Origin: an uncultured Clostridia bacterium
GTDB lineage: Bacteria > Bacillota > Clostridia > TANB77 > CAG-508
DNA: 47,494 bases
Direction: 5' to 3'
Assembly (NCBI GenBank): GCA_904419495.1
Contig: CAJFRV010000017.1
Coordinates: forward strand, 1-47,494
The position numbers and the translations under genes were made by a program. Positions within the stretch are counted from its first letter, which is position 1, and the number at the start of each line of letters is the position of its first letter. Positions 6,110-33,622 of the stretch are shown here, piece after piece. The notes under the pieces are model-generated. The model saw only the letters and a list, made by a program, of their open reading frames with translations. It made no database searches and was not told the DNA's origin.

Positions 6110-7255
6110 TCACTTCATAATCTCATCCATAACTTTTGCTAAGTATTTCATACTTGTTAGACATTGTTCTAATGTGTTTCCTGTTGCTCCTACTTCTATG
6201 ATATTTGCATATTTTCCTGTGTGTTGGTTATATCTAGATGTTGTTAGCATAATTGGCTTAAATAATCCCGGGTATAGTTCTTCTGCTTTTTCTTGTATTT
6301 TAATCGCAAATTTTAAGTTTTGATTCCAATTAGGATGCCATAATCCTCCTGCATTTGTTCCAATAACAAACATGATTTGTGCTGCTTCTTCATCTCCAAT
6401 TTTAACTGTTGGGGCATAATCACTTCTGCTTCCTATTGCATCTCTATGTAAATCTATAATGATATCTGATGGATTGGTTTGTAATAAACTCTCTACTGTT
6501 TTTAAAGAACTTGTATAAGAACCATTATATGATGGATAATCATGATAACTTGTATCATGAATAACATTATATCCATATTGTTGTAATTGCGTAGTAAGTT
6601 CTGTTCCAACTCTTGTTACAGTGAAATTCAAATCTGTTGTTCTATAATTTCCTGTTGGTGTATAAGGATAGGCTTCACTTGAAGTATAACTTTCACAACT
6701 ATGTGTATGAAATATCATAATATTTTTGTTTTCAATTGTAATATCCGGTGTTAACATTTCTTCAGTTAATTGATAATCTGTTTGATTTTTTATTTTTACA
6801 TTTCCATATTGTGTATTATAATTTTCTGCTATTGGATTGTTTGTAACTACTTCTGTTGTAATTCCCGTTTCTGCTAATTCTATATTTTGTTCTTCTTCTG
6901 TGTTTTCTGTTTCAACATCTTCTGATATTTCTTTCATATTTTGAATTTCGTCTATTGAACTGATTTGTGTTTCTAACATTGATTTTAATATATCATTTTC
7001 GCTCAATTTTTCTTTTTCCTTTTCATCATTACGATTAATAGATGCTACAACAGGAAGTGTAGCATCTAAACAAGATAATAAACTATGACTAGATAATTGA
7101 TTTGTTACATTTTCTACTTTTTGTGTAACCTCTTGTGTATTTTTCTTTGCCCCAGAAAAATAATTGGTAATACTAAATATTAATAAAATAAGTACAAATA
7201 TACATATAATATATTTTACGATATCCTTTAACCTTAATACTGCAACATTAAACAT
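6110..7255 (-). CDS. spoIIP: Stage II sporulation protein P (peptidoglycan amidase/endopeptidase)
   Basis: 381 aa with an N-terminal membrane anchor (IICIFVLILLIFSITNYF, residues about 16-33), a low-complexity acidic linker, and the SpoIIP catalytic domain. Key motifs are IMIFHTHSCESYTS (zinc His and Glu), DIIIDLHRDAIGSR, IMFVIGTNAGG, and a C-terminal Glu in ANIIEVGATGNTLEQC. In the family it works with SpoIID and SpoIIM at the septum, degrading peptidoglycan during engulfment of the forespore. No germination protease (gpr) gene adjoins it as in some relatives. The start has a GGAGAAAAGG site immediately upstream. Confidence 0.94.
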   Translation of the reverse strand: MFNVAVLRLKDIVKYIICIFVLILLIFSITNYFSGAKKNTQEVTQKVENVTNQLSSHSLLSCLDATLPVVASINRNDEKEKEKLSENDILKSMLETQISSIDEIQNMKEISEDVETENTEEEQNIELAETGITTEVVTNNPIAENYNTQYGNVKIKNQTDYQLTEEMLTPDITIENKNIMIFHTHSCESYTSSEAYPYTPTGNYRTTDLNFTVTRVGTELTTQLQQYGYNVIHDTSYHDYPSYNGSYTSSLKTVESLLQTNPSDIIIDLHRDAIGSRSDYAPTVKIGDEEAAQIMFVIGTNAGGLWHPNWNQNLKFAIKIQEKAEELYPGLFKPIMLTTSRYNQHTGKYANIIEVGATGNTLEQCLTSMKYLAKVMDEIMK

Positions 7256-12407: not shown

Positions 12408-12444
12408 ATGTCCAATTGGGGACGTTTCTTTTTGGGACATTTTA
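12408..12444 (+). repeat. REP-like dispersed repeat, copy 1
   Basis: Core GTCCAATTGGGGACGTTT followed by CTTTTTGGGACAT, with outer TGTCC/GGGACA and inner GTCC..GGAC inverted repeats. It lies just upstream of dnaE, within the false N-terminal extension of its ORF. Other copies are at 15513 and, inverted, at 24999. Confidence 0.8.
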
Positions 12445-15512: not shown

Positions 15513-15551
15513 AAAATGTCCAATTGGGGACGTTTCTTTTTGGACATTTTT
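15513..15551 (+). repeat. REP-like dispersed repeat, copy 2
   Basis: The same core as at 12408 (GTCCAATTGGGGACGTTT then CTTTTTGGACATTTT), with one G fewer near the right end so that the outer inverted repeat AATGTCC/GGACATT is perfect. It lies between the LRR gene and the TPKTG surface gene. Confidence 0.8.
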
Positions 15552-24998: not shown

Positions 24999-25050
24999 AA
25001 AAATGTCTCAAAAAGAAACGTCCCCAATTGGACACTAAGCTGGACATTTT
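24999..25050 (-). repeat. REP-like dispersed repeat, copy 3 (inverted)
   Basis: On the minus strand: AATGTCC, then AGCTTAGTGTCC as an insertion relative to copies 1 and 2, then AATTGGGGACGTTT and CTTTTTGAGACATTTT. It ends at the nadD stop codon and lies in the nadD-nadE spacer. Confidence 0.8.
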
Positions 25051-30753: not shown

Positions 30754-31014
30754 TTAAACTTTTCCATATTTTTCAAGTATTTTCTTTGCATAAGAACATT
30801 CTGCAATAAGTTTTTTATTTTCTTTTTTTGCATTCTCTATAATGCATTCTACCAACTTTCTTGCAATTCCTTGTCCTTGATATTCATCATTTACCTCTGT
30901 ATGTGTTATATTCCAATAATCTTCTGTTTCTAGAAAATCACATTCTCCTACTTGGATTGTATTATTATATACAACTGCTCTATTTTTCTCTTTATCAAAT
31001 ATAATTTCAATCAT
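30754..31014 (-). CDS. Small GNAT-type acetyltransferase (YidJ/PF14542-like)
   Basis: 86 aa, one third of a normal GNAT fold. It has EVNDEYQGQGIARKLVECIIENAKKE (acetyl-CoA loop) and AECSYAKKILEKYGK, the pattern of the compact GCN5-related acyltransferase family. I start it at the second Met (31014), six bases from AGAGGAG, rather than the first. The family's substrates are mostly unknown. It lies alone between the RhuM-Fic gene and the large foldback element. Confidence 0.85.
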   Translation of the reverse strand: MIEIIFDKEKNRAVVYNNTIQVGECDFLETEDYWNITHTEVNDEYQGQGIARKLVECIIENAKKENKKLIAECSYAKKILEKYGKV

Positions 31015-31127
31015 CATATTCTCCTCTACTTTCTTTTAAGTCTTATGTTTATAAATTTTATTATTTTTTATTCATAATACCATAAAAAAAAGAATTCTGA
31101 AAGATAATATAGTTTTTGTTCAGACTG

Positions 31128-31328
31128 GATTGTCATTAAGCAAGCATATATATTATTTTTTATTAATTGACGAATGTGACGTGGAGTAGATGTACAAATT
31201 CTTAATTTTAAACAAATGAGGAAGCGAGATATCGAGAGGCTCGTTTGTTTAAAATTTAGAATTTGTAATCTATGGAGCTAGCCGAGGAAATAATAAAAAA
31301 TAATATATATGCTTGCTTAATGATAATC
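31128..31328. repeat. Nested foldback element A, about 200 bp
   Basis: Outer arms 31134-31165 and 31291-31322 are a perfect 32-bp inverted repeat (begins CATTAAGCAAGCATATATAT), extended outward by a wobble-paired 6 nt. Inside are two unpaired, GC-richer stretches (around GTGACGTGGAGTAGATG and GGAGCTAGCCGAGG), then a second 28-bp inverted repeat (31193-31220 / 31240-31267) and a 19-nt loop GAAGCGAGATATCGAGAGG. No ORF. It could be a MITE-like element or a large structured RNA; it lies in the gap before the DUF2207 gene. Confidence 0.85.
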
Positions 31329-31444
31329 ATATCTCAATAGAAACGTAATATATTATATTTTTATGACTTTTATATGATTTCATTTACAAAAACTTTAAAT
31401 TTATATATAATCTTCATATAAAATAATTTTTTTGGGGGATGCAA

Positions 31445-33622
31445 ATGAAATATTTAAAATACTTTTTTAGAAAGATTAAAAAAATGGTAAAAGGCATTAT
31501 TGTAAATGCAAAACCTTTTCTATTTATTATACTAATTCTCTTTTTATCTATAGCATCTGAAGGCTATACATGGGAAGATTTTGGTCTTGATGGATTTAGC
31601 TTAAATCCCAATGATTACTGCAATTTAACAGATATTGACTACACCGCAGTTTTACATGATGATCCAAATGGAAATGCCAGTGTTGAAATTACAGAATATT
31701 TAACATTTGATGTGCATGCAGGCTCAAAATCTAATACCTATAAAGAATTATGGAGAGAACTTCCCGAAGAATATGTTGATGGATTAAAGGTAACTTATGA
31801 TGTCAAATCAGTTACACAAATTCTGGACAATGGTCAAGAAATACCTTATTCAGAAACTTCTAAAATGTATTGGGAAGATTCCGACTATACCCAAAGTTCA
31901 ACTATGCGTTGGCATCATAGTGATAGCTCAGGAAGTTATCCAGATAATGATGAGTCTTTGCTAATATACATTCCTTGGACATATCGAGAAAAAATGACTT
32001 TTAAAATTGTATATTCTATGAACAATGCAGCTTTAAAATATAATGATTGTTCTGAATTATATTTAGCTATGTATTCTGGAAATACGATTACAAAACTAAA
32101 TTCTTATAAAGCTCAAATTCTCATACCAGATGAAATAATGCCATCCACTTACTATGCATATACATTTGGAACGGCTAATAATCGATTGCCGCTTATCGAA
32201 TCAGATTATATAAATGATGGCTATCATACATTTTCAATTAATTTGGATAAGTCTGATTTAAAATTCAATTATCACAATCGTTATATAGAATTTTGTTTAT
32301 TGGCATATGGTGATGATAAACATATTTTTACAAAATATGCACCTAATAATAGATATTCAAATGAAAATGTTTTAGAGGAATGTATTGCAGAAAATGAATA
32401 TTATGAAACGCAAAATAGAAAATTTGATACATATAAAACACTATTATTGATAGCATCTATATTTGGTACGATTTTAATAGTGTATACTACAAAAAATAAG
32501 TATATGAAAACTAAGGAAAAATACAACTTATATACCCCAGAGGTAGACTATGATTATTTTAGAGAAATACCAAGTGACTTAGACCCTATTTTTGCTTCTG
32601 AGTTAGTATTTATGAAAGATCCTTTTGATGAAAATAAAGAAAAACAAGAAGAATATGCAGCAATTTTACTTAGTTTAGTAAGAAAGAAATATGTTAACAT
32701 TACGAAATTAGATAATAATCTTGACTGGGATAGTTCAAATACAGTCATTTCTATAGAACCTACTCGCACCAATTACGCAACACCAGCTTTTACGGATTCT
32801 CCAGATTATTCACCAGAACCTATTTATACAACAATAAATGAAAATACTGGTGATGTTTTAGAGCCACTTACTACTTCTGAAAGACTTTATTTAGAATTAT
32901 TGGAAAGACATTCTAGAACTTATCATAATTCAATTACAATTAATCAATTACAAAAATGTATTGATAATGATTATGTATATACAAATGCATTTGTGAAAGA
33001 TATAGAAAAGAAACCTATTTTAGAAAGTGGTGTCATGCAAGGATATTTCCAAAGTGCAGATTATGATGCACCTAAAAAAGAGCTCAATAAAAGTGCTAAG
33101 TCAAGCCTAATTTTAGGATTAATTTTATTAATTGTTATAAATCTAATTTCCTACTTTACACCTATGGCATTAGCCTTCGGGGCATATACGATTTTTGGAA
33201 TCGCTTGTTTGTGGAAATATTTTTATCTAACTTCAAAAGCAAGTAATTTAGTTTTATTTACACAATATGGAGCTAATGAACAAGCTAAATGGTATGGTTT
33301 ATACAATTTCTTAAATAGTGATACTTTGATGAATGAAAAAGAAGTTCATGAATTACCTTTATGGGAAAAATATTTGATTTACGCAACTGCTTTTGGTATT
33401 TCTGAAAAAGTGATAAAAGCGATAAAGATACATGCAGTAGAATTAAATATTGATAGCAGTCCTATATTAAACCATCATTTTTATATTCACTCAAGTAGCT
33501 TTCATAGGACCTCTAGAGCCTTTGGTCGCTCTATTCATACCTCCTCAAGAGGCGGTGGATTTGGTGGACATGGTTATGGTGGAGGCGGCCGTGGAGGCGG
33601 CGGTGGTGGCGGAGGCCATTAA
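31445..33622 (+). CDS. DUF2207 family membrane protein with Gly-rich C-terminus
   Basis: 725 aa from the ATG at 31445 (GGGGG six bases upstream). There is an N-terminal signal or anchor (PFLFIILILFLSIASEG), an extracellular DUF2207 domain (DYTAVLHDDPNGNASVEITEYLTF; YKELWRELPEEY; IYIPWTYREKMTFKIVYSM), a membrane helix (TLLLIASIFGTILIVY), a cytoplasmic region (FASELVFMKDPFDENKEKQEEYAAILL), two more helices, and a terminal RGGGFGGHGYGGGGRGGGGG tail ending in His. This tail is typical of the family in Firmicutes. Function unknown; membrane location is clear. Confidence 0.92.
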   Translation: MKYLKYFFRKIKKMVKGIIVNAKPFLFIILILFLSIASEGYTWEDFGLDGFSLNPNDYCNLTDIDYTAVLHDDPNGNASVEITEYLTFDVHAGSKSNTYKELWRELPEEYVDGLKVTYDVKSVTQILDNGQEIPYSETSKMYWEDSDYTQSSTMRWHHSDSSGSYPDNDESLLIYIPWTYREKMTFKIVYSMNNAALKYNDCSELYLAMYSGNTITKLNSYKAQILIPDEIMPSTYYAYTFGTANNRLPLIESDYINDGYHTFSINLDKSDLKFNYHNRYIEFCLLAYGDDKHIFTKYAPNNRYSNENVLEECIAENEYYETQNRKFDTYKTLLLIASIFGTILIVYTTKNKYMKTKEKYNLYTPEVDYDYFREIPSDLDPIFASELVFMKDPFDENKEKQEEYAAILLSLVRKKYVNITKLDNNLDWDSSNTVISIEPTRTNYATPAFTDSPDYSPEPIYTTINENTGDVLEPLTTSERLYLELLERHSRTYHNSITINQLQKCIDNDYVYTNAFVKDIEKKPILESGVMQGYFQSADYDAPKKELNKSAKSSLILGLILLIVINLISYFTPMALAFGAYTIFGIACLWKYFYLTSKASNLVLFTQYGANEQAKWYGLYNFLNSDTLMNEKEVHELPLWEKYLIYATAFGISEKVIKAIKIHAVELNIDSSPILNHHFYIHSSSFHRTSRAFGRSIHTSSRGGGFGGHGYGGGGRGGGGGGGGH

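Follow-up and report, generated by a model that had tools for sequence, protein, structure and literature searches.

In the Bacillus cereus group, the intergenic repeats bcr1-bcr3 are mobile and MITE-like, and bcr10 and bcr18 have a conserved secondary structure for which an RNA function is suspected (PMC3446304). REP and REPIN sequences with RAYT (PMC2817692, PMC3116915) and the CGTC/GTAG-tagged repeats (PMC3733652) are palindromic intergenic repeats of high copy number. For human microbiomes, gut metagenomes have yielded predictions of palindromic intergenic structures as candidate structured RNAs; these are 80-132 bp long, come from Bacteroidetes and are mostly terminator-like, with mobility unreported (PMC8040213).

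Like IS66-family MITEs, the element described here is short, non-coding, multicopy and intergenic, with an 8-bp duplication and the terminal repeats of IS66 elements of the same genus; unlike them, it has as its interior a conserved, covarying structure that does not stem from the autonomous elements we examined, and nearly the whole element forms one long hairpin with perfect, copy-specific arms. Likened by description to the bcr repeats, it belongs to another clade and has MITE character and conserved structure in one element. It shares the high copy number, palindromic form and intergenic location of REP/REPIN sequences, and some cores in the same genome ride inside REP/REPIN-type ends, whereas in the class of the copy studied here the structured core is far larger, the ends are of IS66 type and the duplications measure 8 bp. 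From the microbiome RNAs, likewise intergenic palindromic structures, it is set apart by description and not by comparison with their 3161 models; within this partial coverage of the literature, we found no published description of the family.

The window copy

We analyzed a window of 47,494 nucleotides, contig CAJFRV010000017.1 of an uncultured Clostridia bacterium (genome G000 below; G203 is a sister genome, and L-numbers denote loci with copies or elements). An earlier note, made from the sequence alone, had pointed to a foldback at 31128-31328 that no gene explains. The foldback is present, and two inverted repeats indeed lie one within the other; the sole correction concerns the extent, as the mobile unit spans the 233 bp at 31112-31344. 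The perfect outer arm measured 33 nt (31133-31165 with 31291-31323) and sits in a longer arm of 57 nt with 86% complementarity (31112-31168 / 31288-31344), while the inner arm with its 19-nt loop was recovered at 28 nt and 93% complementarity (31193-31220 / 31240-31267). No ORF of at least 80 aa covers the foldback, and no inverted repeat within 1 kb in the window is longer. The neighboring genes diverge from the intergenic gap that holds it, a GNAT gene (30754-31017) being read leftward and a DUF2207 gene (31439-33622) rightward, and the candidate promoter of the latter, TTTACA-17-TATAAT at 31383-31411, is a good match and starts 39 bp beyond the right end of the element. The features of the copy are the following.

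31104-31111, unstranded: left target-site duplication ATAATATA, 7/8 identical to 31345-31352 (8/8 in sister copies)
31112-31125, plus strand: left terminal repeat GTTTTTGTTCAGAC, 12/14 identical to the IS66-family element end GTTACTGTTCAGAC (L298/L300)
31133-31165, plus strand: left outer arm, perfect 33 nt; sequence copy-specific, near-perfectly complementary in sister copies
31169-31184, plus strand: basal internal loop, 5' side, GACGAATGTGACGTGG (conserved GACGAATGTGA...), near-invariant columns in alignment A1, common to core subfamilies A-D and F
31185-31220, plus strand: covarying inner helices, 5' side (RNAalifold, pair counts, inverted repeat)
31217-31246, plus strand: apical motif TGAGGAAGCG(n)CGAGAGGCTCGTTT (pattern search, chance expectation in the window 0)
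31240-31271, plus strand: covarying inner helices, 3' side (inverted repeat, RNAalifold, pair counts)
31272-31289, plus strand: basal internal loop, 3' side, ...GGAGCTAGCCGAGGAA; AGCCGAGGA near-invariant in A1 and in other subfamilies
31291-31323, plus strand: right outer arm, perfect 33 nt (inverted-repeat search, folding)
31331-31344, minus strand: right terminal repeat, decayed, reading GTTTCTATTGAGAT on that strand, 10/14 identical to the left end
31345-31352, unstranded: right target-site duplication GTAATATA, 7/8 identical to ATAATATA

The predicted RNA folding energy of the foldback was -100.4 kcal/mol, compared with -41.8 +/- 4.5 for shuffled sequences (z = -13.2; 0/200 shuffles were as stable). 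The promoter and terminator scan gave no evidence for the core, the promoter part being uninformative. An AT-rich intergenic site would suit a chance palindrome or a terminator, an explanation that the folding (z = -13), the at least 20 homologues in the genome and the absence of a terminator match refute, leaving it a negligible probability.

Family size and spread

By BLAST, the element had homologues in 77 of 211 genomes of the same genus and no further full-length copy in its own. The copies of the own genome are missed by BLAST because they belong to diverged subfamilies, and finding them needs a covariance model. Such a model (R1), built from 30 diverse homologous cores, gave 21 matches in G000 and 46 in G203, a few of which are opposite-strand echoes of the palindrome; the further copies that the earlier note had proposed to look for thus number about 20 in the own genome, with 40-odd matches in the sister genome. 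Across the bacterial family, which consists of uncultured gut Clostridia, copies were found in at least 107 of 390 genomes and at least 23 of 39 sampled genera, and an order-wide sample added at least one matched genome outside the family and no other among the candidates scored; all R1 counts are lower bounds, as eight candidates were scored per genome. The apical pattern occurred in at least 113 stretches of genome contigs, all from MAGs of uncultured Clostridia, Eubacteriales or Clostridium, and plasmids, phages and viral contigs gave no match to the element.

Terminal repeats and target-site duplications

In intact copies, both ends read GTTACAGTTCAGAC, GTTACAATTCACAG or GTAACTATTCAGTGG and have 8-bp direct repeats outside them. 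The repeats, a check proposed in the earlier note, agreed at 8/8 positions in over twelve sister copies and at 7/8 in the window. Perfect 8-mers flanked the copies at L083, L117, L128 and L107 (TTTAATGC, GTATAGAA, TAAAGTTA and TTTAAATA) as well as L241, L242 and L244-L249 (ATTTTATT, CATATGTT, AACATATG, TAATTCTT, CCAATTTA, GTTATTTT, AATTGTAA and AAAATTAG), and at L074 the left end of the window copy recurs, as GTTTTTGTTCATAC, with a perfect duplication. Among all loci examined, duplications were found for 18 of the 42 GTTAC-ended pairs 130-400 bp apart and for 0 of the 64 control pairs 400-4000 bp apart. A near-empty site was also found, AGTTATTG being present once in L168 and twice around the copy L080:1609. 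The window locus itself has no clean empty site: the orthologues in G202, G203, G204 and G027 are all filled, and the distant DUF2207 loci (G083, G073, G025) share the right flank only, from ~31368. In the four orthologues, the substitutions cluster in the right arm.

With its 233 bp, no transposase gene and ~20 copies in G000, the element has the makings of a MITE, and the dispersed copies, the 8-bp duplications and the near-empty site bear out the suggestion of a mobile MITE-like unit. In 93 of the 127 subfamily-A copies, the 130 nt flanking the core contain no recognizable GTTAC motif, and some copies carry other ends, of GTTTCAG type or, in G000, of REP type. Outer ends of a third type, TTTAAGTTTCAGnATTTTT / TTTCCAGTTTCAG, were seen at L043, L057, L040, L035 and L162, where the arms are perfect over ~45-56 bp and a clear 8-bp duplication is absent. 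A sister class of structured cores occupies the same GTTACAGTTCAGAC ends, again with 8-bp duplications, at L241, L244, L245 and L248; its interior differs and has the basal motif GAGTGCGATTGGAGCAACC on the opposite strand.

IS66-family partners

An exact GTTACAGTTCAGAC-end search for autonomous elements of 1-3 kb in 206 genus genomes listed inverted pairs of ~48-320 bp, and the partners were reached only through the transposase family. IS66-family genes in genomes of the genus lie within elements of 1.6-1.95 kb that have 8/8 target-site duplications and ends reading GTTACTGTTCAGAC, GTTACAGTTCAG, GTTACTACTCAGCCC or GTTACTAGATAATGG. The first of these, at L298, L300 and L302, matches the window's GTTTTTGTTCAGAC at 12/14 positions and also matches the GTTACAGTTCAGAC of sister copies, the right end of the window copy being degenerate; GTTACTAGATAATGG is also the end of the L114 copy, and the L300 element lies in G027, a genome that also holds a copy at the window locus. 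Two of the IS66 proteins matched the transposase model with E values of 4.5e-48 and 1e-52, and both carry the NCBIfam name IS66 transposase while scoring just under the curated cut-off (164.2 and 179.6 vs 180). The Pfam cut-off for IS66 was passed in 30 of 195 genomes, and G000 has no IS66 match. An IS256-family mobilizer (PF00872) was rejected, as the family is present in 3 of 12 genomes and GTTAC ends do not flank the gene.

Since the autonomous elements that share its ends and its 8-bp duplication length carry genes for IS66-family transposases, we assign the element, by sequence, to the IS66-type MITEs; for the window copy the assignment rests on the sister copies, because its own ends match at 12/14 and 10/14 positions and its duplication at 7/8. 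Mobilization in trans by an IS66 transposase appears likely from the shared ends.

A conserved single-strand structure in the core

The core alignment of 30 sequences contains 36 stem pairs, with 96.6% of the cells paired. The compensatory changes that the earlier note had proposed to look for occur on both sides in 23 of these pairs, and the covariation score was 0.508, compared with 0.163 in shuffled and at most 0.095 in slid alignments. The interior loops, said in the note to look conserved, are near-invariant in alignment A1: basal GACGAATGTGA.../...AGCCGAGGA and apical GAGGAAG.../...AGAGGCTC. Subfamilies that differ considerably in their stems and apical tips still share the basal loop and the architecture. 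Between orthologous copies, not all of them independent pairs, substitutions amounted to 3.7% in the core and 9.7% in the flanks.

Mismatches of the G-U and A-C types numbered 45:16 in the inner stems and 76:100 in the outer arms. The excess of G-U in the inner stems points to a function of the plus strand when single stranded, in the core only, and the counts in the arms point to a double-stranded role at the DNA level. The suggestion of a large structured RNA is upheld for the conserved, covarying structure, while the support reaches as far as the single-strandedness of one strand. The two earlier readings hold jointly: the element is a MITE with a conserved single-strand structure inside.

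Strong covariation, zero Rfam matches above the gathering threshold (in the window and 20 loci with diverse copies) and the presence of the same core on more than one end type would all fit a family of structured RNA genes that recombination has dispersed and whose terminal repeats are incidental. Against this stand the near-empty site, the perfect 8-bp duplications that flank GTTAC ends (0/64 at control spacings) and the fact that autonomous IS66 elements share these ends; the duplications rule it out as the complete explanation, and we regard it as very improbable.

A structured insert of another kind, ~150 nt long (AACAAYAGC...GCGTCnTTGTTCGnCGCCAAATTT...AAATTTGTGTGC... and a hairpin) was seen in the 5' strand of the inner stem at L033 (~7000-7170), L120, L046 and L114. 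An IS200/IS605-like account of these four copies, whose left half is seemingly replaced, was rejected in favor of the insert. In several species, subfamily-A cores are nested, in opposite orientation, in the apical loop of a subfamily-D core (L047 ~1402, L113 ~2021, L068 ~350). Short tandem duplications inside the core (L131 ~5902, L101 ~1694, L117 ~2444), such as the CGCGAAGAATGTAG repeated in the L131 apical loop, apparently reflect slippage in the hairpin.

Genomic context and orientation

Nearly all copies (139/143) avoid ORFs. Where the neighboring genes are in tandem, the core strand runs counter to them in a ratio of 59:17. With GC skew as a proxy for the direction of replication, it runs against the leading strand in 105 copies and with it in 35; the anti-leading bias is also seen between divergent or convergent genes (29:13), and the p-values on orientation are optimistic because the copies are related. 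One possible reason is that copies are lost when their orientation puts the stronger hairpin into the lagging-strand template. The stronger hairpin is formed by the plus strand, in 143/143 copies as RNA and in 142/143 as DNA.

These numbers lend themselves to a purely DNA-level element, a minority reading that we take seriously, in which the core would be an ssDNA hairpin recognized in transposition or replication, like REP/RAYT or IS200/IS605 ends, and not an RNA. The one-strand G-T wobble and the orientation bias would then reflect the strand exposed at the fork, in keeping with the stabler DNA hairpin of the plus strand, the agreement of orientation with GC skew, including the divergent and convergent gaps, and the G000 cores found inside RAYT/REP-type ends. 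Arguing against it, the core stays conserved after insertion in orthologous copies, lies at least 50 nt inside the ends and is missing from those autonomous IS66 and RAYT elements that we inspected, so that neither transposase needs it.

A second type of ends

In G000, 14 of the ~20 cores lie within TGTCCAATTGGGGACGTTTC ends, 13 of them with an end on both sides; there are 106 such ends in the genome, and they also flank a RAYT gene at C24. The window contains REP-like ends TCCAATTGGGGACGTTTC at 12411-12428 (+), 15519-15536 (+) and 25015-25032 (-), compared with 106 genome-wide and 0 in the control. The REP-like ends mostly form inverted pairs that enclose different contents (about 80, 145 and 280 bp), one pair at G000:C24 holding the RAYT/Y1_Tnp gene, and several RAYT genes in G000, G203 and G205 are surrounded by REP-like palindromes. 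We saw no consistent duplication outside REP-type ends.

The 14 cores and the shared RAYT gene ends could be taken to place the element with the REPINs, BIMEs and other REP/RAYT (Y1 transposase) elements, a placement that we consider quite unlikely, given that the window copy has no such ends and its class has 8-bp duplications. As the REP/RAYT-type ends are unrelated to the IS66 type, the core travels on two end types; subfamily-B cores, some inside REP-type ends and some without them, further indicate that it is not tied to IS66 ends. Tentatively, the core may be an independent structured module, a parasitic or passenger RNA that at least two unrelated transposition systems have carried, with IS66-type and RAYT/REP-type ends, and that contributes a function of its own (host-factor recruitment, or protection or regulation of the element), its arms being rewritten in concert by hairpin-templated correction; we hold this to be rather unlikely.

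Mirrored changes in the outer arms

The outer arms vary between copies, even orthologous ones, yet remain near-perfect palindromes. Perfect arms of at least 18 nt were found in 57 copies and comprise 51 distinct sequences; the ungapped arm has a median length of 31 nt, and the longest extends over 99 nt with zero mismatches. The orthologues L043 and L015 are roughly 90% identical in the flanks and about 97% in the core, and in an arm block of ~21 nt about half of the positions differ, indels included, with every difference mirrored in the other arm. In this pair as well as in L098/L071 and L130/L035, the arms match better within a copy than between the orthologues. Hairpin-templated correction is the simplest account of the mirrored changes; repeated replacement at a hotspot is possible.

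Discussion

We favor, with a probability of about 0.83, an old non-autonomous MITE with IS66-type ends, the core of which acts as a folded single strand, most likely RNA, with arms that act at the DNA level and are corrected through the hairpin, and of which the window copy is decaying. An IS66 transposase would cut in trans at the GTTAC ends, and the element would insert into AT-rich intergenic DNA through an 8-bp staggered cut. The plus strand of the core would fold, most likely as RNA and alternatively as extruded ssDNA, and its two internal loops may be bound by a putative factor; the core would be kept under selection. In the outer arms, one arm would be copied from the other with the hairpin as template, so that arms change fast between copies and stay palindromic. 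The insertion of the window copy, immediately upstream of the DUF2207 promoter, probably predates the split of five species, and as the right end of the copy is decaying, the copy is probably immobile now.

Template-switch correction in palindromes has been studied mainly in laboratory constructs, and the mirrored arm changes in orthologous copies would be a natural record of the process. The interiors of MITEs are usually uninformative; here a demanding covarying structure with near-invariant loops has been kept in at least 23 of the 39 genera sampled from one Clostridia family, with copy numbers that reach 40-odd in a genome and with different types of ends. If the core is an RNA, it would represent an abundant, uncatalogued class of bacterial RNA tied to mobility.
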